From positions 1 to 58,385 of the forward strand of contig QZIL01000034.1 of the NCBI GenBank assembly GCA_003599025.1: a stretch of DNA of 58,385 bases, given 5' to 3'. Positions 7,782 through 27,339 of the stretch are shown piece after piece; the stretch's first letter is position 1; each line of letters opens with the position of its first letter. Both the position numbers and the translations under genes were made by a program. This stretch comes from Nitrospiraceae bacterium. Its GTDB lineage: Bacteria; Nitrospirota; Thermodesulfovibrionia; UBA6902. The notes beneath the pieces were generated by a model. It made no database searches, was not told the origin of the DNA, and saw nothing but the letters and a program-made list of their open reading frames with translations.

Positions 7782-7971
7782 TGTCTTTTGATAACTGACT
7801 GCTGCAATTAATCAGAGCACTATTATACTTAATTCGGTCAGATATTTTCACTCACGCCCCGGTGGTGAATTGTCGGGACGCTTAAAAGGGGAGAATTGTA
7901 AAAAATATCATATTACTGTTTCCTGAGGTATACTCTGAATTATAAATATAGAAGCCGGTCAGAGACACGCG

Positions 7972-9045
7972 ATGGGACCATTTATCAGGAGTGCAGTCAG
8001 CACTGTCATCATCTTCTTGTTTACCGTAAGCTGCGCGTCAACCGCAGAAGAAGGGACACCGGAGCACCATCGGGACGGGAATTTCAGAAACGTATATCTT
8101 CAGGAAGACCACGGTTTTTTCGAATTCGTTAAATGGCGCTGGGAGCGCTTGTGGAAAGAAATTCCATCAGCTGACTCATACAGCTTTCCCCTCGCAAAAA
8201 ACGATCCCCCTTTTCTCCGTTCCAACCACAACCACACAACCCTGACATGGATCGGGCACGCGACCCTGCTTATTCAGATGCACGGGAATAACATCCTCAC
8301 TGACCCGCAGTTTTCAGAGCGCGCCTCTCCTGTCCAGTGGGCCGGGCCCAGAAGGGTAGTCCCTCCCGGCATAGCGATGGAGGATTTGCCTGATATTGAC
8401 ATTGTCATTATCTCTCATGACCACTACGATTCCCTTGATGTCAACACTGTACGAGGATTGCATGCCCGAACAGGAGGCGATAAGACAAAGTTCTTCGTGC
8501 CGCTTGGACTCAAGGCATGGTTTCAGAAGCTGGAAATAACCAATGTAGTTGAAATGGACTGGTGGGATGAGCAGGAAGCTGGCAGCCTGAAAGTCATTGC
8601 CGTGCCTATGCAGCACTGGGGCAAGCGGACGCCCTTTAACCGTAATGACCACCTGTGGGCAAGCTGGGTAATTATCGCCGATGATTTCCGCTTCTACTTC
8701 GGTGGCGATACCGGATTCTCGTCGCATTTTAAGGAAACAGGTGACCGCTTCGGTCCCTTTGATCTGGCAGCACTGCCTATCGGCGCATATGAACCGAGGT
8801 GGTTTATGAGAAATCATCATATCAATCCTGAGGAAGCTGTTCAGGGACATATAGCCCTGCGTTCAAAAAAATCTGTTGCAATGCACTGGGGCACATTCAT
8901 GCTAACTGACGAACCTCTGGATGAACCGCCGGTGAGACTCAGAAAGGCATTGAAAGACGCGAGCGTCCCGGAAGAAGCGTTCCGGGTCCTTCAGCACGGA
9001 GAGACGATCATTATTGAACATGATAAACAGAATGAAACAGACTGA
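7972..9045 (+). CDS. Metallo-beta-lactamase-fold hydrolase (NAPE-PLD/UlaG-like), lipoprotein
   Basis: This 357-residue protein begins with a signal peptide ending in the lipobox-like TVSC. The metallo-hydrolase core is clear: WIGHATLLIQ, ILTDPQFS, the zinc motif ISHDHYDSLD, then QHWGKRTPF, YFGGDTGFS and a C-terminal MHWGTF. This arrangement is characteristic of the N-acyl-phosphatidylethanolamine phospholipase D-like subgroup, so an envelope phospholipid-type substrate is possible but unproven. It is monocistronic by position. A repeat-containing hairpin follows the gene. Confidence 0.85.
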   Translation: MGPFIRSAVSTVIIFLFTVSCASTAEEGTPEHHRDGNFRNVYLQEDHGFFEFVKWRWERLWKEIPSADSYSFPLAKNDPPFLRSNHNHTTLTWIGHATLLIQMHGNNILTDPQFSERASPVQWAGPRRVVPPGIAMEDLPDIDIVIISHDHYDSLDVNTVRGLHARTGGDKTKFFVPLGLKAWFQKLEITNVVEMDWWDEQEAGSLKVIAVPMQHWGKRTPFNRNDHLWASWVIIADDFRFYFGGDTGFSSHFKETGDRFGPFDLAALPIGAYEPRWFMRNHHINPEEAVQGHIALRSKKSVAMHWGTFMLTDEPLDEPPVRLRKALKDASVPEEAFRVLQHGETIIIEHDKQNETD

Positions 9046-9070
9046 CATAAATTTACCCTGAACCTGAGAT

Positions 9071-9121
9071 CAGTGTCGGTGTGTGTTTTTTTTACTGACA
9101 CTGACACTGACTACTGACACT
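9071..9121. repeat. Hairpin with TGACACTGAC tandem units
   Basis: CAGTGTC at 9071-9077 pairs with GACACTG at 9097-9103, the loop containing a run of eight T. The right arm is followed by further CTGACAC copies to about 9120. It follows the hydrolase stop at 9045 and may be its terminator. The tandem copies would allow alternative pairings. Confidence 0.45.
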
Positions 9122-9146
9122 ATTAAGCACAGAGAGGTGACCAAAA

Positions 9147-9317
9147 ATGGATTATGACATCATTAAAGTTCAGTTAGACGGAGAGTTTAAAATCTGTCCT
9201 TCATGCGGGTACAAGGACGGGTTCCATTCCATGTTCAGGAAAGAGGGGGGCATAACCAGATGGCTTTTTATATGCCCTTCTTGCCACAGCGTCTTTGATA
9301 TCGGTTTTACGGTTTAG
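9147..9317 (+). CDS. Small zinc-ribbon protein
   Basis: This is a 56-residue protein starting MDYDIIKVQLDGEFK. Two CPSC knuckles (CPSCGYKDGF near residues 17-20 and CPSCHSVF near 43-46) form a classic four-cysteine zinc ribbon. An AGAGAGGTGA ribosome binding site lies upstream. The stop at 9317 is followed after only a few bases by the DUF454 gene, so the two are probably co-transcribed. Function is unknown; such stand-alone ribbons may bind nucleic acid or be metal-binding accessory proteins. Confidence 0.75.
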   Translation: MDYDIIKVQLDGEFKICPSCGYKDGFHSMFRKEGGITRWLFICPSCHSVFDIGFTV

Positions 9318-9320
9318 AGT

Positions 9321-9701
9321 GTGATGCACAAACCTCTGCTCATTGTTCTGGGAATTTTTTTTGTAGGTCTGGCTTTTCTCGGCATATTTCTCCCTGTGCT
9401 GCCGACCACCCCGCTGCTGCTGCTGGCCCTTGCGTGCTTTGCGAAATCTTCAGAAAGGCTCCATAACCGGCTTCTTGCAAACAAAACGTTCGGCCCGCTC
9501 ATCAGGCAATGGCATGAGACAAGGAGCATGCCCAGAAAGGCCAAGGTCTATGCCATAATCTCTATTCTTGTTGGCGGGGGGATATCGATTTATTCTGTGG
9601 ATGAGGTCCTGCTTAAGCTCATTTTGACAGCAGTGCTTATCATTCCTGTTGTAATAATACTTAAGATAAAGACCGCTGACCGGCGGCAGGACAAACTATA
9701 A
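9321..9701 (+). CDS. DUF454 (YbaN-like) inner-membrane protein
   Basis: This is a small membrane protein of about 126 residues. The family signature FLGIFLPVLPTTPLLLLAL(A) near residues 18-37 is followed by a cytoplasmic loop with FAKSSERLHNRLL, LIRQWHETRSMP, and two further hydrophobic segments near the C-terminus. Translation may begin at GTG 9321 or ATG 9324. The gene is packed directly after the zinc-ribbon gene. YbaN family function is unknown. Confidence 0.85.
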   Translation: MMHKPLLIVLGIFFVGLAFLGIFLPVLPTTPLLLLALACFAKSSERLHNRLLANKTFGPLIRQWHETRSMPRKAKVYAIISILVGGGISIYSVDEVLLKLILTAVLIIPVVIILKIKTADRRQDKL

Positions 9702-18180: not shown

Positions 18181-20664
18181 TCACACCGTCTCAACCCTCA
18201 CAGCATCAACCGGAATCCCCTTATAAAAGGAAAGATGCGTAAGGGCGCTTACCCCGCTATGGGGGAAATTTGACGGCACATAGACTGTGCCTGACGGTAC
18301 ATCATCAGAGACAATGGCCTTAAGGTAAGCGCTGCCGCGTCTTGAACTTACCCTGACATGACAGCTGTCTGATATGCCGAACCTTTGGGCATCATGTCCA
18401 CTCACCTCAAGGAGCGCCTCTGAAGAAACGAGACCGAGTGTTTTTGACCTTGTCGAACTGCTGCCTGCATGCTGTAATATGTCCCTGACCGCCATGTTCA
18501 GGGGATACTCTGCATCCGGTTCTTCCCCCGGACTGTAATGAACGGGCATGAAAGACGCAGAGAGAACAGGCAGCTCACTGAATATCTCACAGAGCGTTTC
18601 TATCTCTTTCTCTATGTCTTCCCTCTTTCTTATGCCCATGTCCCTTCCCATGGCTGTTGCAAGCCTGCTTATAATCTGCCAGTCAGGCAGTGACTGCCCT
18701 GTCGGCTCAATGACTTTGCTGAGCCTCTGTGCAATACCTTCTGCATTGGTATATGTACCTTCCTTTTCCGCCCAGCTTGCAGCAGGCAGCACGACATGGG
18801 CCAGTTTTGCAGTCTCTGTCATAGCAATGTCCTGCACTACCAGCAGGAACAGCGATTTCAGTGAGTGGGTAATGTTTGCCTTGTCAGGGAAAGTGGCAGC
18901 AGGATCTGCCCCCATTATATACAGGGCCTTGAGCGAATAGGGTTCATAAAGCATTTCAGAAAGGCCTGTTCCGGCAGTCCCTGATGTCTGCTGAAACGGT
19001 CCGGGGTCAGGCCTGACGCCCATCTGGTAAAGCCCGAAGGTATTTGCGTATTCAGCCGGTATCTGCAGTGCCTCCGGAGACTCCCCGAGGAGGTTGATAA
19101 GGTTTGCCGCTGCCAGTACAGTATCAATTCCCTTTGTATTATCAGAAACGCTGATTGAGAGAGTAAGCATACGCGTTTTAGCCCCGGCAAATGTCTCTGC
19201 CGCAGTAACGAGTTCTTCGGCCGTAAGCCCTGTTATTTCAGATACCCTTTCAGGTGTGTAGACTTTTACCGCCTCCACAAGGTCTGAATATCCGCTGATC
19301 TTTGAAGTGGTTTCTTTATCATAAAGCCCGCTGTCTAATATGACCTTAATTATCCCGTTAAGAAATGCCACCCCGGTCCCCTGCCTTATCTTCGACCACT
19401 GTGTGCTGTGCCTTGTAAGCTTTGTCTCTCTGCTATCTGCAACGAGGAGCTTTGCCCCCTGCCTTTTTGCCTTCAGGATGTTGAGCCCGAATACAGGATG
19501 AGAAGTGCACGGATCTGATTCAAGGACAAGGACAACCTCTTTGCCGAGCGGGAACTTCATGTCAATCTTGTGGCCCCTCAGGCCAAAGGCCATGTTCCAG
19601 GCCTTCTCCGCAATCCCATAGCCAAAAGCGGCGGAGGAATCAACATTGTCCGTTCCTATATTCCGACGCATAAATTTCTGCAGGACGTAATTATCTTCAT
19701 TTGTACATCTGGGTGAGCCTATGGCCCCCACTGAAGAGGGTCCGTGAGAGTTAATCAGGTATTTAAGGTTGTCACTGATATAACCAAATGCCTCGTCCCA
19801 TGAAACCTCAACAAACTCATCTCCATTCTTTATCATCGGTGACTTCAGGCGATTTTCGCTGTAGATATAATCCACGCCGAACCTACCCCTGCCGCAGAGG
19901 TCCCCGTCATTTATTCCATGGCCCTGCCTGCCCTTTGATCTCACTATCTTCCCGTCCATAGTCCCGATTGTAAGGGTACAGCCGCAGCCGCAGAAGGGAC
20001 ATAACGTGTCCTTTTCCTCGAGCGACCATGGCCGGGCTTTAAATTTGAAAGGCTTGCTCAGTAGCGCGCCGGTAGGGCAAACATCAATACACTGCCCGCA
20101 GTAATCACATTCAAGCGCTTCTCCAAATGCCGGCTGCACCACTGTCGGGAAGCCCCTGCCGATAAGTCCCAGAGCCCCCTGTCCCTGATATTCGGAACAG
20201 AGCCGTACACACTTGCCGCAAAGGATACATCTGTTGGCATTTAATTCAACAAGAGGCCCTTTTATATCAGGCGGCATATGCTTTCTCTCTCTGAAAAAGC
20301 GGCCCTCAGGCTTGCCGTATTCATACACCAGTTCCTGTATATCGCACTCTCCGGCTTTATCACATACAGGACAGTCAAGCGGATGGTGCACCAGCAAAAA
20401 CTCAAGCACATTCTGACGTATCTTCCGGACCTTTGGAGTATTTGTATTAACTACCATTCCTTCACCCGCAAGTGTAGCGCATGACGCCTCAAGTTTCCTC
20501 TGCCCCTCTATTTCTACAATACATAACCTGCAGCCGCCGTACACCTCAATCCTCTTGTCATAACAGAGATTGGGTATCTTGATCCCGTTGGCCAGCGCAG
20601 CCTGCAAAATGGTGTTCCCTTTTTCAGTCCCGACCTTTTTCCCGTTTATGGTCAGCTCTATCAT
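18181..20664 (-). CDS. NuoG/FdhA-like iron-sulfur molybdopterin-fold subunit, probably not a catalytic oxidoreductase
   Basis: This 827-residue protein is the last gene of the operon. Residues 1-75 form a 2Fe-2S ferredoxin (C34, C45, C48, C62). HHPLDCPVCDKAGEC (93-107) is the His/Cys-liganded 4Fe-4S site. Two further 4Fe-4S sites follow (C146/149/152/156 and C186/189/192/196), then CPFCGCGC with C257. The remainder is a molybdopterin-dependent fold with SPRCTNEDNYVLQKF. In formate dehydrogenases the metal-binding Cys/Sec lies in CARxCH/U; here the segment reads DSSAAFGYG (342-350) with no Cys or stop codon. The Mo/W ligand is therefore missing, and the subunit more likely serves electron transfer like NuoG. 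Confidence 0.85.
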   Translation of the reverse strand: MIELTINGKKVGTEKGNTILQAALANGIKIPNLCYDKRIEVYGGCRLCIVEIEGQRKLEASCATLAGEGMVVNTNTPKVRKIRQNVLEFLLVHHPLDCPVCDKAGECDIQELVYEYGKPEGRFFRERKHMPPDIKGPLVELNANRCILCGKCVRLCSEYQGQGALGLIGRGFPTVVQPAFGEALECDYCGQCIDVCPTGALLSKPFKFKARPWSLEEKDTLCPFCGCGCTLTIGTMDGKIVRSKGRQGHGINDGDLCGRGRFGVDYIYSENRLKSPMIKNGDEFVEVSWDEAFGYISDNLKYLINSHGPSSVGAIGSPRCTNEDNYVLQKFMRRNIGTDNVDSSAAFGYGIAEKAWNMAFGLRGHKIDMKFPLGKEVVLVLESDPCTSHPVFGLNILKAKRQGAKLLVADSRETKLTRHSTQWSKIRQGTGVAFLNGIIKVILDSGLYDKETTSKISGYSDLVEAVKVYTPERVSEITGLTAEELVTAAETFAGAKTRMLTLSISVSDNTKGIDTVLAAANLINLLGESPEALQIPAEYANTFGLYQMGVRPDPGPFQQTSGTAGTGLSEMLYEPYSLKALYIMGADPAATFPDKANITHSLKSLFLLVVQDIAMTETAKLAHVVLPAASWAEKEGTYTNAEGIAQRLSKVIEPTGQSLPDWQIISRLATAMGRDMGIRKREDIEKEIETLCEIFSELPVLSASFMPVHYSPGEEPDAEYPLNMAVRDILQHAGSSSTRSKTLGLVSSEALLEVSGHDAQRFGISDSCHVRVSSRRGSAYLKAIVSDDVPSGTVYVPSNFPHSGVSALTHLSFYKGIPVDAVRVETV

Positions 20665-20682: not shown

Positions 20683-20729
20683 AAATAAGTCATATACGCG
20701 TAATAGGACTTATTTGACCTGTTACGCGT
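20683..20729 (-). promoter_or_regulatory. Overlapping hairpins / possible pseudoknot before the NuoG-like gene
   Basis: Two inverted repeats interlock in the 57-bp spacer. ACGCGTAATAGG (20696-20707) pairs with CCTGTTACGCGT (20718-20729). AAATAAGTC (20683-20691) pairs with GACTTATTT (20707-20715), which is essentially the loop of the first hairpin. In RNA this is the layout of an H-type pseudoknot or of two exclusive hairpins. It ends about 10 bases before the GGAGGTG ribosome binding site and includes the stop codon of the preceding gene. Confidence 0.5.
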
Positions 20730-22602
20730 TACTCTCAACAAGTCCCTCCCCCGCGTTTGCATAGTACTGCAAGTCAGCCTCATTCGCACTCCGTGCTGAA
20801 AGGGGAAGTATCTTTATCGCATCGAATTTACAGGTATCAACACAGGTCCTGCAGTGAAGGCAGGCGTCCTGAAGTATCTTATGAGGCTTTTTCTTTTCTC
20901 CCTCAATGGCATTCGAAGGACATGCCCTCATACACGCGCCGCATCCCTTGCAGAGCTGTTCATTGATACAAAATGTGCTGATGTCACGGCACACACCCGC
21001 AGTACACCATTTGTCTTTTATATGCGACTCATACTCCTGCCTGAAATGCCTTATCGTTGAGAGCACGGGATTGGGCGCTGACTGACCGAGTCCGCAGAGA
21101 GAAGCAGATATGATCGTATCGGACATCTCTTCAAGCAGTTCTATGTCCCCTTCCCTGCCCCTGCCTTCACAGATATCGATGAGCAGGTCATGCATCAGTC
21201 TTGTCCCGATCCTGCAGGGCGCACATTTGCCGCAGGATTCGTCCGCAGTGAATTCGAGAAAAAACTTTGCCGTGCTGACCATGCAGGTACTTGTATCCAT
21301 TACAACCATCCCGCCCGAGCCTACGATAGCACCGCTCTGCTCGATTGCCTCATAAGTCACCGGGATATCGAGGTATGCTTCCGGAATGCACCCGCCTGAA
21401 GGACCGCCCAGCTGGACTGCCTTGAACTTTCTCCCCTTCCTGTCGATCCCGCCGCCTATATCAAAGATGATCTTCCTGAGTGTTGTATCCATCGGGACTT
21501 CAACGAGTCCTACATTATTTATTGCGCCCGTAAGTGCAAAGACCTTGGTGCCCGCGCTTTTTTCAGTGCCAAGGCTCCTGTACCATCCCGCGCCATTTAA
21601 TACGATCTGCGGGATATTGGCCAGTGTCTCGACATTATTCAGGACTGTGGGCTTGTCCCAAAGTCCCTTGACTGCTGAGCGCCACAGCTTAGGTCTTGGC
21701 ATGCCGCGTTTCCCTTCAATAGAACGCATCAGGGCAGTGGCCTCCCCGCAGACAAAGGCTCCTGCTCCCTGGTAAATCTCAAGATCGAAATCAAATCCGG
21801 TGTTGAGAATGTTTTTGCCTAACAGTCCAGCCTCATAACACTGGTCTATGGCGATCTGGAGACGTTTCACTGCCAGCGGGTATTCAGCCCTAACATAGAT
21901 ATAGCCTTTATGTGCTTCAGTCGCAATGCCGCAGATAATCATCCCTTCGATTACCGCATGAGGGTCTGCCTCCATGACCGACCTGTCCATGAATGCACCG
22001 GGGTCGCCTTCATCGCCGTTGCATACAACAAATTTCTCATCTGAGCTGATCTTACGGCCAAGCTCCCATTTTTTCCCTGTTGGAAAACCGGCCCCTCCCC
22101 TTCCGCGCAGGCCGGAGTCCGAGACCACCTTTACTATATCTTCAGGCTTCATCAGTGTCAGCGCCTTTGAAAGCGCCTTATACCCGTCCATCATTATATA
22201 GTCTTCTATCCTCTCAGGGTCGATAAGCCCCTTGTTTTTCAGCACCACAAGCACCTGGTGTTTGAAAAAGGGGATATCGTGTATTGACGGGATGGATGTT
22301 TTTTTCTCCTGCTCTTTGAATGTAAGTTTCTGATATGGTCTCCCTTTGAGAAAATGCTCTTCAATAAGTGCAGGTACATCTTCGGTCTTTATGTCCTGAT
22401 AAAATGTCTCATCCGGATACACTGCCATAACAGGTCCTTTGGCGCAAAAACCATTACATCCCGAGAGCACCACCTTTGCTTCATCCTGAATTCCCTTTTT
22501 CCTGAATTCCTCTTCCATGGCTGCCTTGACCTTCATCGTCCCGCTCGCCATACAGCCTGTGCCTCCGCAAAGCATTGCATGTGTACGTACTGCGGTTTCC
22601 AT
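20722..22602 (-). CDS. hndC: NADH-binding flavoprotein subunit, HndC/NuoF type
   Basis: This 626-residue subunit has the HndC/HydB architecture. A thioredoxin-like 2Fe-2S domain (about 1-95; LCGGTGCMASG, LSGCNGFCAKGP) comes first. The NuoF core follows, with FMN and NADH sites GLRGRGGAGFPTGKKW, CNGDEGDPGAFMDRS and GAGAFVCGEATALMRS, and 4Fe-4S ligands ESCGKCAPCRIG. A C-terminal two-cluster ferredoxin (CKGCGACMRACP, CLHCRTCVDTC) ends the protein. It would oxidise or reduce NAD(P)H via FMN and pass electrons to its neighbours. In electron-bifurcating hydrogenases and formate dehydrogenases this subunit type is the flavin site. Confidence 0.92.
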   Translation of the reverse strand: METAVRTHAMLCGGTGCMASGTMKVKAAMEEEFRKKGIQDEAKVVLSGCNGFCAKGPVMAVYPDETFYQDIKTEDVPALIEEHFLKGRPYQKLTFKEQEKKTSIPSIHDIPFFKHQVLVVLKNKGLIDPERIEDYIMMDGYKALSKALTLMKPEDIVKVVSDSGLRGRGGAGFPTGKKWELGRKISSDEKFVVCNGDEGDPGAFMDRSVMEADPHAVIEGMIICGIATEAHKGYIYVRAEYPLAVKRLQIAIDQCYEAGLLGKNILNTGFDFDLEIYQGAGAFVCGEATALMRSIEGKRGMPRPKLWRSAVKGLWDKPTVLNNVETLANIPQIVLNGAGWYRSLGTEKSAGTKVFALTGAINNVGLVEVPMDTTLRKIIFDIGGGIDRKGRKFKAVQLGGPSGGCIPEAYLDIPVTYEAIEQSGAIVGSGGMVVMDTSTCMVSTAKFFLEFTADESCGKCAPCRIGTRLMHDLLIDICEGRGREGDIELLEEMSDTIISASLCGLGQSAPNPVLSTIRHFRQEYESHIKDKWCTAGVCRDISTFCINEQLCKGCGACMRACPSNAIEGEKKKPHKILQDACLHCRTCVDTCKFDAIKILPLSARSANEADLQYYANAGEGLVESNA

Positions 22603-22715: not shown

Positions 22716-23099
22716 TTAAAAAATTGTTTCACTTCCCAGAGCGAGCGCATATTTCTCTGCGGGTTGTCCGCTTAAAATATGCTCCCTGAATATCTCCCTT
22801 ATCTTCTCTTCATTCAGCTCTCCGTAAATGACCGGTGGATGTTCAGGCAACTCAATAACAGCCATCGGCTCCCTTGCACACAGCCCGCCGCAGCCTGTGG
22901 TCTTTACCAGTATGTCCTCCCTCCCGGAAAGGACAATCTCATTCATCAGGGCTGTCATGACACCCCTTGCCCCGGCTGCGATACCGCAGGTCCCCATGTG
23001 TACTGTTACCTTGGCCCTGGATTCACCTTTTCTCAGGGTAAACGTCGCTCTATTTTCATCCCTGATCTTTTGAAGCTCATCTATGGTTAGTTTTGTCAT
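22716..23099 (-). CDS. hndB: Thioredoxin-like 2Fe-2S ferredoxin, HndB type
   Basis: This is a 128-residue protein. The start is the ATG at 23097-23099, preceded by AAGGAG at 7-base spacing and giving MTKLTIDELQKIRDENRA, a typical HndB beginning. Four cluster Cys occur in MGTCGIAAGA and TTGCGGLCAREP. Sequence upstream in the same frame is a palindromic repeat, not protein. HndB-type proteins are small electron carriers between NuoE/NuoF-like subunits. Here the receiver-NuoE fusion next door lacks the 2Fe-2S half of NuoE, so this protein may supply it. Confidence 0.88.
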   Translation of the reverse strand: MTKLTIDELQKIRDENRATFTLRKGESRAKVTVHMGTCGIAAGARGVMTALMNEIVLSGREDILVKTTGCGGLCAREPMAVIELPEHPPVIYGELNEEKIREIFREHILSGQPAEKYALALGSETIF

Positions 23100-23269: not shown

Positions 23270-24028
23270 CTATCCTCTTGCCTCTTCCAGCTGTCTCATC
23301 CTGATAAATTCATTTACCGCGCTCTCAACTTTCTTTCCCTTCTTTAAGGGCATGCCCCTCCAGACTTTCTGGCTGCCCATTATGTGGCATGGGACACGAT
23401 CTTCTTCCGGTCTCGTTCTGAAATAGGGATAAAAAGAAACGATGCTGTGTATTTCGGACGGATACATGTCAAGTCCCTGTGCAACGCGCTTCTGTATCCC
23501 CGGGGGGAGATATCCCAGTATGTCCTGGCAGCGGAGCAATGCCCGGATTGTATGGCCGGGATTCCCTCTGTACTGCATTGCCACCTCATCTACTGCTTTG
23601 AGTATTACTTCCGGGAACTCTTCTTTGAGCCTGCTGTTGAGTTCAACCTCTTTCATCCATGCCAGAGTCTCGGCTGTCGTTTCTTTCAGCATGGCCGGGG
23701 TAAAAGGCTTCCTCATGTGTGTGATTATCCCGAGTTTGTGCGCTTCCTTTATGGTTTCCATTTCCTGTATAAGGTGGCCTGTAATGACCACAATCCCTAT
23801 GGTTGGCCGGACCTGTCTCAGCCACCTGATGAAGGTAATACCGTCAATCCCCGGCATCATAAGGTCAGTAAACACAAGATCGTAGTGGTTCTGCTGGATC
23901 CTGTTCATCGCCTCTTTTGCGCTGAGTACGCCTTCGACGATATATCCCTCAGGTTCAAGCGCCCTCCATGCACTCTTGATGATAATCGGGTCGTCGTCTA
24001 CGACTAAAATGTTTATATAGTCTTTCAT
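23270..24028 (-). CDS. Response-regulator receiver fused to NuoE helical domain
   Basis: This 252-residue fusion has an intact CheY-like receiver at residues 1-115: D12/D13, phospho-acceptor D55 in FTDLMMPG, T83 and K107 in RKPF. Residues about 130-225 match the N-terminal helical domain of the 24 kDa NADH dehydrogenase subunit (NuoE/HndA): VDEVAMQYRGNPGHTIRALL, ILGYLP, SEIHSIVSFYPYFRTRP. It ends just as the NuoE thioredoxin fold would begin (VPCHIMGS), so the 2Fe-2S half is missing. There is no DNA-binding domain. AGGAGGAAAGAC precedes the ATG. Phosphorylation may control assembly or activity of the NADH-linked complex encoded in the same operon; that is inference. Confidence 0.85.
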   Translation of the reverse strand: MKDYINILVVDDDPIIIKSAWRALEPEGYIVEGVLSAKEAMNRIQQNHYDLVFTDLMMPGIDGITFIRWLRQVRPTIGIVVITGHLIQEMETIKEAHKLGIITHMRKPFTPAMLKETTAETLAWMKEVELNSRLKEEFPEVILKAVDEVAMQYRGNPGHTIRALLRCQDILGYLPPGIQKRVAQGLDMYPSEIHSIVSFYPYFRTRPEEDRVPCHIMGSQKVWRGMPLKKGKKVESAVNEFIRMRQLEEARG

Positions 24029-24138: not shown

Positions 24139-25581
24139 TTATTTGAACTCCCAATACTTCCACTTAAGGTACTCGTTGACTGCATTCGCTGCCCTCCTTC
24201 CTGCCCCCATGGCGAGAATAACAGTTGCAGAGCCTGTAACAATGTCTCCGCCTGCAAAGACCCCTGGCTTCGAGGTCATTCCTGACCCTTCCTCTGCAAC
24301 TATATAGCCCTTTCTGTTGATCATTAAATCCGGCACTGTCTTTGTCAGTATCGGATTGGCCCTGGTCCCGAGTGCCGGGATTGCCACGTCTATTTCAATC
24401 TGGAACTCGCTCCCTTTTACCGGGACCGGCCTTCTCCTGCCTGTTTCATCAGGCTCACCGAGTTCCATCTTTATACACTCAACTGCACAGACATTCCCCT
24501 TGCCATCATCAACGAATCCTGCAGGATTTGTGAGCAGTACGAACTCTATTCCCTCCTCATGCGCGTGGTGCACCTCTGCCTTCCTTGCCGGCATCTCTGC
24601 CTCGGAACGCCGGTAAATGAGATAGACCTTCTCAGCTCCAAGCCTTAAGGCCACCCTTGCAGAATCCATTGCCACGTTGCCGCCACCCAGGACCGCCACC
24701 CTTTTGCCCACCTTTATAGGGGTGTCATACTCCGGAAAGAGATAGGCCTTCATTAGATTGGCCCTGGTCAGATATTCATTCGCAGAACAGACCCCGTTGA
24801 GGTTCTCCCCCGGTATCCCGAGGAACATGGGCAGCCCTGCGCCAATACAGATAAAACATGAATCATATCCCCGTCCGTTCATCAGTTCGTCAATCGTATA
24901 GAGTTTCCCTATCACTGCATTCGGCACGAATTCCACACCAAGTTTTGTTATATACTCAACCTCCCGTTCAACGATCGCCTTGGGAAGCCTGAACTCCGGG
25001 ATGCCATAGATCAGCACCCCACCGGGTTTGTGCAGGGCCTCAAATAAAGTGACATGATGCCCGGACTTTGCCAGGTCAACAGCACATGTCAGGCCGCCGG
25101 GACCTGATCCTATTACAGCCACTTTTCTGCCGGTGGACCTCGGTCTTTCCGGAATTTTCATGTCGCCGTTTGCGGCCTCATAATCAGCAACAAACCTCTC
25201 GAGATTCCCTATCGCAACCGGCTTGCCCTTTTTCCCCATGAGACAGCGGGACTCACACTGGAGTTCCTGGGGACATACCCTTCCACAGACCGCAGGCAGT
25301 GCGTTCCGCTCCTTGACCTTGTAGCAGGCATCAAGGTACCTCCGCTCTTTTATGAGACCGATAAAGCCGGGGATGTCCACTCCGACCGGGCAGCCCTCCC
25401 TGCAGGGGCCGTTTTTGCAGCTCAGGCATCTGCCCGCTTCTTCAAATGCCTCTTCAGGAGAATATCCATAAGGGACCTCCCTGAAATTCCTTGCCCTGAC
25501 CAGAGGCGGCTGCTCCCTCATCTCCACTCTCTCTTTTGTTTTACTCTCCTCTGTCATAGTTGCCATTTTACTTACCCCCAT
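24139..25581 (-). CDS. nfnB: NfnB / GltD-like NADPH-binding flavoprotein
   Basis: This protein of about 480 residues has two N-terminal 4Fe-4S clusters (CLSCKNGPCREGCP; CGRVCPQELQCESRC). Two Rossmann folds follow: FAD site VAVIGSGPGGLTCA, second dinucleotide site VAVLGGGNVAMDSARVA, and a final FAGGDIVTGSATV. This is the glutamate-synthase small-chain fold, and pairing with nfnA identifies NfnB rather than GltD. NfnAB couples NADH, NADPH and ferredoxin by flavin-based electron bifurcation. ATG codons at 25581 and 25566 are both possible; the first overlaps nfnA by 14 bp, and the second has GGGGGT upstream. Confidence 0.88.
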   Translation of the reverse strand: MGVSKMATMTEESKTKERVEMREQPPLVRARNFREVPYGYSPEEAFEEAGRCLSCKNGPCREGCPVGVDIPGFIGLIKERRYLDACYKVKERNALPAVCGRVCPQELQCESRCLMGKKGKPVAIGNLERFVADYEAANGDMKIPERPRSTGRKVAVIGSGPGGLTCAVDLAKSGHHVTLFEALHKPGGVLIYGIPEFRLPKAIVEREVEYITKLGVEFVPNAVIGKLYTIDELMNGRGYDSCFICIGAGLPMFLGIPGENLNGVCSANEYLTRANLMKAYLFPEYDTPIKVGKRVAVLGGGNVAMDSARVALRLGAEKVYLIYRRSEAEMPARKAEVHHAHEEGIEFVLLTNPAGFVDDGKGNVCAVECIKMELGEPDETGRRRPVPVKGSEFQIEIDVAIPALGTRANPILTKTVPDLMINRKGYIVAEEGSGMTSKPGVFAGGDIVTGSATVILAMGAGRRAANAVNEYLKWKYWEFK

Positions 25582-26398
25582 TCATTTTCCCGCCGCACAT
25601 GGCCGTATGTTCCTCCGGAATATAGGCCTGCAGCCTCTTCATAAGCAGATCAAAATCCACCAGATGTCCATCAAATTCAGGACCGTCCACACATGTGTAC
25701 TTTGTCTCTCCCCCGATTTCCACCCTGCACCCGCCGCACATCCCGGTTGCATCGATCATGATGGAATTCAGACTGACTATGGTTTTGACATTGTATGTTG
25801 CAGTCGTCCTGCATACGAACTTCATCATGACTGCAGGCCCTATTGCTACTACCAGGTCAACCTTCTCACTGCTCAGGATATCTTCAAGCGGGACGGTTAC
25901 TACCGCCTTTGTACCGCAGGATCCGTCATCCGTAGTGATAATCAGATCATCTGATACGCGTCGCATCTTTTCTTCCCAGAACAGGATTGATTTTGACCTC
26001 GCGCCGATGATGGATGTGACCTTGTTGCCTGCCTCTTTCAGCGCCCTTGCTATCGGATAAACAGGTGCGATGCCAACACCGCCGCCCACACATACGACCC
26101 TGCCGAAATTATCAATGTGAGAATGATTGCCGAGAGGTCCGATGACGTCGGTTATATAATCCCCCTCGTTAAAGGTCCCCAGGTGATGCGTGGTCTTGCC
26201 GACCTTCTGAAAGACGGTTGTAATCGTGCCTCTGCCTCTGTCGAAATCAGCGATGGTCAGAGGTATCCTCTCTCCCTGCTCATGGGTCCTGAGTATGAAG
26301 AAATTGCCCGCCCTCGCCTTTTGAGCGATATCTCCTGCTTCGATATCGAACAGGGTTATCTGCTCTGACAGGTCTTCTTTTTTCAAGATCTTATACAT
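25568..26398 (-). CDS. nfnA: NfnA, NAD-binding ferredoxin reductase subunit
   Basis: This 276-residue protein has an FAD-binding beta-barrel (about 1-100, ERIPLTIADFD), a nucleotide domain with VVCVGGGVGIAPVYPIARAL, and a C-terminal 2Fe-2S segment (MIDATGMCGGCRV with a third Cys in KYTCVDGPEFDGH). In NfnA that cluster is held by one Asp and three Cys, and the Asp is present. The chosen ATG at 26396-26398 gives MYKILKKEDLSE and the family's usual length; the longer frame adds an unrelated N-terminus. It is the first gene of the electron-transfer operon. A regulatory element lies 98-147 bases upstream. Confidence 0.88.
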   Translation of the reverse strand: MYKILKKEDLSEQITLFDIEAGDIAQKARAGNFFILRTHEQGERIPLTIADFDRGRGTITTVFQKVGKTTHHLGTFNEGDYITDVIGPLGNHSHIDNFGRVVCVGGGVGIAPVYPIARALKEAGNKVTSIIGARSKSILFWEEKMRRVSDDLIITTDDGSCGTKAVVTVPLEDILSSEKVDLVVAIGPAVMMKFVCRTTATYNVKTIVSLNSIMIDATGMCGGCRVEIGGETKYTCVDGPEFDGHLVDFDLLMKRLQAYIPEEHTAMCGGKMNGGK

Positions 26399-26658: not shown

Positions 26659-27339
26659 TCAGTAAATCGCCTTGACCGCATGGATGAACACATCGTGCGT
26701 GCCCTTTAACTGCAATTTGATCTTGATGTGCTCTATATACGTTTCAACGGTCTTGACGCTGAGGTTCAGGCGCTCCGCTATCTCATGTTTTTTCAGGCCC
26801 TGTCCTATAAGCTGATAGACTTCCAGCTCGCGGTTGCTGAGCGGCTTTGCAGGAGCGTCAATGCCTTCAAATCTGTTTCTGGCAAATTTGTGGAGTAGCT
26901 GTACATTTAATTTATCACTGACATAAATGTCCCCGTTCAGGACCGTCCTTATTGCCGACAGCAGTTGCCTGGAGGACTCCTGCTTCATTATATAGCCCCT
27001 TGCCCCGGCTTTGAGGCAGCGTTCGGCATATGTGGCTTCATCATGCATTGAGAGCACCAGCACCATTATACCCGGATTTGAATAAGTAAGGTTCTCTATA
27101 AGCCTGATGCCGCTGCCGTCTCCAAGGCTGATATCAACTATCGCAATATCAGGTTTCCCCTCTGAAACAGCATGAAATGCATCCGTAACATTGTCCGCCT
27201 CCCCGCATATCAGCAGGTCTTCTTCACTATTAATAAGGTGTGAAAGCCCTTCTCGCAATATTGCGTGGTCGTCGACTATAAAGACACTGTGCTTTTTTAT
27301 TCTGTTCTCCACCTCGATTGCGACCATGGCGTTGTCCAT
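26659..27339 (-). CDS. NarL/FixJ-type response regulator
   Basis: This 226-residue protein has a receiver domain (about 15-130; VDDHAILREG, phospho-acceptor Asp in IVDISLGDGSG, Lys in IMKQESS) and a LuxR-type helix-turn-helix (about 160-220; LSNRELEVYQLIGQGLKKHEIAERLNLSVKTVETYIEHI). It would bind palindromic sites on phosphorylation. No partner kinase lies beside it. A perfect palindrome ATAAGAAATTTCTTAT occurs about 100 bases upstream of its start, and a related site precedes nfnA, suggesting autoregulation plus control of the electron-transfer operon. AGGTGG precedes the ATG. Confidence 0.92.
   Translation of the reverse strand: MDNAMVAIEVENRIKKHSVFIVDDHAILREGLSHLINSEEDLLICGEADNVTDAFHAVSEGKPDIAIVDISLGDGSGIRLIENLTYSNPGIMVLVLSMHDEATYAERCLKAGARGYIMKQESSRQLLSAIRTVLNGDIYVSDKLNVQLLHKFARNRFEGIDAPAKPLSNRELEVYQLIGQGLKKHEIAERLNLSVKTVETYIEHIKIKLQLKGTHDVFIHAVKAIY

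Follow-up and report, generated by a model that had tools for sequence, protein, structure and literature searches.

Introduction

Electron-bifurcating enzymes of the Bfu type and complex I share a 24 kDa subunit (BfuC, HydC or NuoE) that sits beside BfuB or NuoF and combines a helical bundle with a domain in which four cysteines hold the [2Fe-2S] cluster C1, or N1a. The C1 cluster is described as conserved in all Bfu enzymes (PMC9304861), and a histidine of the B2 cluster of BfuB is reported to be absent from non-bifurcating HydB homologues. Bfu-type modules are also found combined with Nfn-type modules, as in StnABC of Sporomusa and NfnABC (9n5u), where BfuA includes the NADP domain and BfuC retains its cluster (PMC9304861). 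A link between response regulators and NADH oxidation has been described in mycobacteria, in which the orphan response regulator Rv3143 / Msmeg_2064 is reported to be a component of the Nuo complex via NuoD (PMC9274095). Here we describe a gene in which a receiver domain is fused to the helical bundle of NuoE, the cluster domain being absent.

Results

The window analysed here, contig QZIL01000034.1 of a Nitrospiraceae bacterium (58,385 nucleotides), encodes a 252-residue protein (Table 1) with a match to Response_reg (PF00072) at residues 7–117 (E 3e-25). The initial annotation had taken all of the receiver residues to be intact, which is true of D55, T83 and K107, but the acidic pair is D11/D12 rather than D12/D13 (residue 13 is also an aspartate). 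It had also seen no DNA-binding domain in the fusion and a C-terminal half that stops where the 2Fe-2S fold of NuoE would begin, and both observations hold: Pfam found no DNA-binding domain in the 252 residues, and the match to 2Fe-2S_thioredx (PF01257) at residues 147–226, which is above the cut-off (E 2.5e-11), covers only positions 2–88 of the 145 in the profile. The C-terminal half matched the BfuC/HydC/NuoE chains 8oh5_A, 7p5h_C and 7t2r_C in a phmmer search of the PDB, and the GYLP and VSFY motifs are still present in the bundle. In the AlphaFold2 model the receiver and the four bundle helices (140–199) are confident, and residue 200 is followed by a low-confidence tail of two helices with no strands or sheet; the further strands expected of a 2Fe-2S thioredoxin fold do appear in the model of the full-length paralogue. 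The C1/N1a domain with its four cysteines is thus missing. When the model was used as a Foldseek query the top matches were all receiver proteins (target TM up to 0.93), so the identity of the bundle rests on sequence.

Table 1. Features of the fusion gene and of the genes around it, in minus-strand order (positions in the window).
Feature	Position	Strand	Remarks
LuxR/NarL-type response regulator	26659..27339	minus	directly upstream; homologue at the equivalent place in two sister species
NfnA/SudB-like FAD/2Fe-2S protein	25568..26398	minus	start by homology; ORF extends to 26494
NfnB/SudA-like flavoprotein	24139..25581	minus	family models
Receiver-NuoE(bundle) fusion	23270..24028	minus	252 aa; C1/N1a cluster domain absent; ORF boundaries exact
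Receiver domain, residues 7-117	23678..24010	minus	D11/D12, D55, T83, K107 intact
D55 codon of receiver	23864-23866	minus	
NuoE/BfuC N-terminal four-helix bundle, residues 140-200	23429..23611	minus	Pfam, PDB matches, model
Basic tail of 40 aa, residues 213-252	23273..23392	minus	replaces 2Fe-2S fold
HndB-like thioredoxin-fold protein	22716..23099	minus	three conserved Cys; start at MTKLTIDELQ by homology
HndC/BfuB (NuoF-like)	20722..22602	minus	all B1-B5 cluster ligands, including H527
NuoG/FdhA-like molybdopterin-fold subunit	18181..20664	minus	BfuA position; lacks Cys/Sec of formate dehydrogenase active site

The spacing of the genes in Table 1 suggests a single operon. Two sister species show an identical order over the part that their contigs cover. 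The two genes preceding the fusion scored above the cut-offs of NfnAB/SudAB family models (405 bits against 220 for NF004862; 566 against 472 for TIGR01316), and the gene that follows it is of the HndB type, as first annotated, with HndC after it. The subunit at the BfuA position has the expected 2Fe-2S and 4Fe-4S domains (PF13510, PF10588 and PF22117). Full-length fusions elsewhere often have an HK530-like kinase as a neighbour; none was found adjoining the window operon, where the immediate upstream gene is that for the LuxR-type regulator.

The BfuB of the window has kept the histidine of B2 along with every other B1–B5 ligand. In a tree that included two complete sequences from operons with the truncated fusion, these BfuBs lay on a long branch of their own, nested among the BfuBs of full-length operons. 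The BfuB of the window has also lost near-invariant residues, with E288A and RPPFP replaced by KLWRS at residues 305–309. By alignment offset these positions correspond to E185 and 202–206 of Thermus Nqo1 and are probably in the nucleotide pocket. A change in NAD(P) preference is possible on the strength of these substitutions, and it stays at that grade because the solved HydB 8a6t carries similar changes.

Where formate dehydrogenases have the DNCARV-U/C-H motif, the NuoG/FdhA-like subunit reads DSSAAFGYG, and since it thus lacks the Sec or Cys the operon is probably not one for a formate dehydrogenase, an assignment we rejected. The same combination, of retained Fe-S domains and a missing Sec/Cys, was seen in all of the FdhA/NuoG-like homologues linked to receiver-NuoE that we inspected. 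Elsewhere in the same genome, two formate dehydrogenase genes have an in-frame TGA at the active site (L043:2936-2938 and L044:5785-5787) that probably encodes selenocysteine.

A search for the receiver-NuoE pair and its neighbourhood across genomes, as the initial annotation had proposed, covered 296 genomes sampled from the phylum. By a count of the match table 75 of them have such a fusion, every one within the window's own class; named records with the fusion are from Nitrospirae/Nitrospirota, some being labelled Thermodesulfovibrionales or Thermodesulfovibrionia. In the phylum of the Syntrophaceae genome G303, no receiver was found ahead of NuoE in any of 247 genomes despite strong NuoE matches, a count that took only matches below E 1e-45; on this sample we rejected the idea that the fusion is common outside Nitrospirota. 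A NuoE match in that Syntrophaceae genome (G303:C33:11254-11688) lies within an open frame of 292 residues and is possibly another fusion. Two matches across both domains in Desulfobacteraceae were rejected as fusions, since receiver and NuoE turned out to be encoded by separate genes; at these loci (L153:8995-10107 and L155:2682-3679) a free single-domain receiver lies shortly upstream of the free NuoE, beside DRTGG and BfuB genes.

Among 67 distinct fusions that were aligned, D55 is intact in 63, and all four cluster cysteines are kept in every one of the 64 full-length proteins. The C1 domain is missing from only three (the window gene, G209:C17 and G297:C172), all from one genus. A few members of the class (L075, L136 and L074) have degenerate receiver active sites fused to an intact NuoE. 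The usual neighbours of receiver-NuoE genes are BfuB/HndC and a NuoG-like subunit, and histidine kinases and further receivers are frequent beside them. For 53 of them with at least 4 kb of flank on each side, the neighbours include an HK530-like (HisKA) kinase at 26 loci, a REC-GcvH protein at 37, a HATPase at 29 and a PHP protein at 24, which makes control of the ancestral complex plausible. The REC-GcvH protein combines a receiver with a glycine-cleavage-H-like domain (GCV_H, E 5e-5, in L041:9891-10658) and is encoded just upstream of the full-length receiver-NuoE at those 37 loci. A complex I (nuo) cluster often lies divergently from the operon of the full-length receiver-NuoE, as at L039 (the C82 locus of the window genome, with a HisKA kinase at 7797-9401) and at many related loci.

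The two other species with the truncated architecture encode proteins 73% and 78% identical to that of the window. A pseudogene or an assembly error was rejected as an explanation, given three separate genomes and purifying selection. Nei-Gojobori estimates of dN/dS among the three genes, which are rough because synonymous sites are near saturation, were 0.05–0.10 for the receiver, 0.08–0.19 for the bundle and 0.07–0.24 for the tail, so that all parts of the truncated gene, the tail among them, are under purifying selection. The tail core IMGSQKVWRGMP is the same in two species, and the third has V for I within it and I for L just past it; the single cysteine of the tail is not conserved across the three. 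In the sister species G209 the phospho-acceptor aspartate is replaced by glutamate (D55E), the active site being intact in the other two, so that not all of the truncated proteins can depend on phosphorylation. In a tree built from receiver and bundle the three proteins group together with full support, and their long branch arises from among the full-length fusions. Since both the fusion and its BfuB nest among full-length counterparts, the truncated form represents loss of the C1 domain and not an ancestral half.

Discussion

The window gene is derived from a class-wide receiver-BfuC(NuoE) fusion; the C1 domain has been lost, the receiver and bundle have been kept and a conserved basic tail has been gained. 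The reading that we favour, with a probability of roughly 0.6, is that the product is a cluster-less, receiver-bearing paralogue of BfuC that docks on the BfuB of an Nfn-Bfu-type NAD(P)H oxidoreductase, which it regulates or scaffolds. Conservation of the bundle argues that the fusion still docks on BfuB, and that of the receiver speaks for a role in signalling or, at the least, in structure. Because the switch and the docking part have been kept while the iron-sulfur cluster has been lost, the protein probably serves as a regulator or scaffold rather than as half of a split enzyme. We infer docking, phospho-control and all later steps as follows. The bundle would bind BfuB as in other BfuBC cores, in a subunit that itself carries no electrons. 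Where D55 is kept its phosphorylation, and otherwise the fixed glutamate, would then shift the seating of bundle and tail on BfuB at a site near the normal swing of C1 between FMN and the B2 cluster, and the electron path would comprise BfuB, the NuoG-like subunit and NfnAB. Counting against this reading are the published Bfu mechanism, which requires C1 and offers no account of how a BfuB with an intact B2 would work without it, the D55E substitution in one of the three truncated species and the lack of an adjoining HK530-like kinase. A BfuB with all its ligands beside a BfuC that lacks C1 leaves three options: a complex that works without C1, one that takes its C1 from a different NuoE, or one that has ceased to bifurcate.

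That the receiver of the truncated clade is vestigial, or a purely structural pseudo-receiver in a protein that is a plain scaffold, is possible if rather doubtful. The glutamate at position 55 in G209 fits such a role, as do an altered β4–α4 loop with a two-residue insert and the degenerate receivers found in a few other members of the family; however, the receiver is the most constrained part of the protein, and its active site is intact in two of the three truncated species, as is D55 in nearly all of the aligned fusions. A bolder proposal, to which we give a similarly tentative standing, would have the receiver gate electron bifurcation directly throughout the class, with a receiver-driven, redox-inactive subunit having replaced the moving C1 domain in the window's genus to yield a C1-less, phospho-controlled Bfu core. 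The initial annotation had already suggested a coupling of two-component signalling to NADH-linked electron flow. With a fusion that is real, old, class-wide and often found amid two-component genes, this coupling is a fair hypothesis.

The same annotation held that NuoE had been split, with HndB supplying the cluster half in trans. HndB is indeed thioredoxin-like and encoded next after the fusion, but it is not confined to truncated NuoE: it follows 35 of the 53 receiver-NuoE genes with usable flanks, nearly all of which have a complete cluster domain. It has three conserved cysteines where the [2Fe-2S] thioredoxin fold has four, and the gap before its gene held no remnant of a lost half, whether frameshifted or as a separate downstream piece. 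We therefore rejected HndB as the missing half, and a split NuoE is very improbable. A full-length NuoE elsewhere that serves this complex had been named as evidence against the split. The operon itself has no C1-bearing BfuC, and five full-length NuoE-type genes do lie elsewhere in the genome, namely a receiver-NuoE on contig C82 and four others, any of which may serve this complex; the objection thus applies in part. With the BfuB cluster ligands intact, the complex could borrow one of these (the C82 protein, for example) for C1, leaving the truncated fusion to act in another place, as in signalling only; yet a single bundle site is expected per BfuB, and purifying selection on the bundle suggests that the truncated fusion occupies it, making borrowing distinctly unlikely. 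Somewhat less unlikely is a competitor or assembly brake, in which the cluster-less fusion displaces the full-length receiver-NuoE of the other operon on BfuB and keeps some BfuB non-bifurcating. Both forms are encoded in the window genome and in two sister species, and a conserved bundle without C1 would suit a competitor, but diverged BfuB, HndB and NuoG-like genes of its own accompany the fusion and that BfuB is on a long branch, so a dedicated complex, as in our preferred reading, fits better.

If the receiver acts, an electron-bifurcating NADH oxidoreductase would be under two-component control at the post-translational level, the receiver being fused to just that subunit in which movement of a domain is the proposed gate of bifurcation. 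The class-wide family offers many homologues with which to test such control. The essentiality of C1 is assumed in the Bfu literature, and the truncated clade offers a direct test of it, being a natural deletion of the gate in which the BfuB ligands are kept. The initial annotation knew of no described example. In the open-licence literature searched we found no description of a receiver-NuoE fusion or a C1-less BfuC, and in that respect nothing contradicts it, although there is a description of an unfused response regulator that acts on Nuo (PMC9274095). The domains and the enzyme family are thus known, and the fusion with its lineage-specific loss is apparently undescribed.

Compared with known systems, the window fusion resembles BfuC/HydC/NuoE in its bundle, in its place beside BfuB and in its sequence matches, and differs in having an N-terminal receiver and no C1 domain. 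It shares domain order and operon with the full-length fusions of the class, among which its clade is nested, but lacks the C1 domain, whereas they keep all four cluster cysteines. As in the Nfn-Bfu enzymes, Nfn-type and Bfu-type modules are combined; here, however, NfnA and NfnB are separate genes and a NuoG/Fdh-like protein occupies the BfuA position. Rv3143, likewise a response regulator without an effector domain and reported as part of an NADH dehydrogenase complex, is a free protein on NuoD of the membrane complex I rather than one fused to NuoE, and is the nearest described functional precedent.
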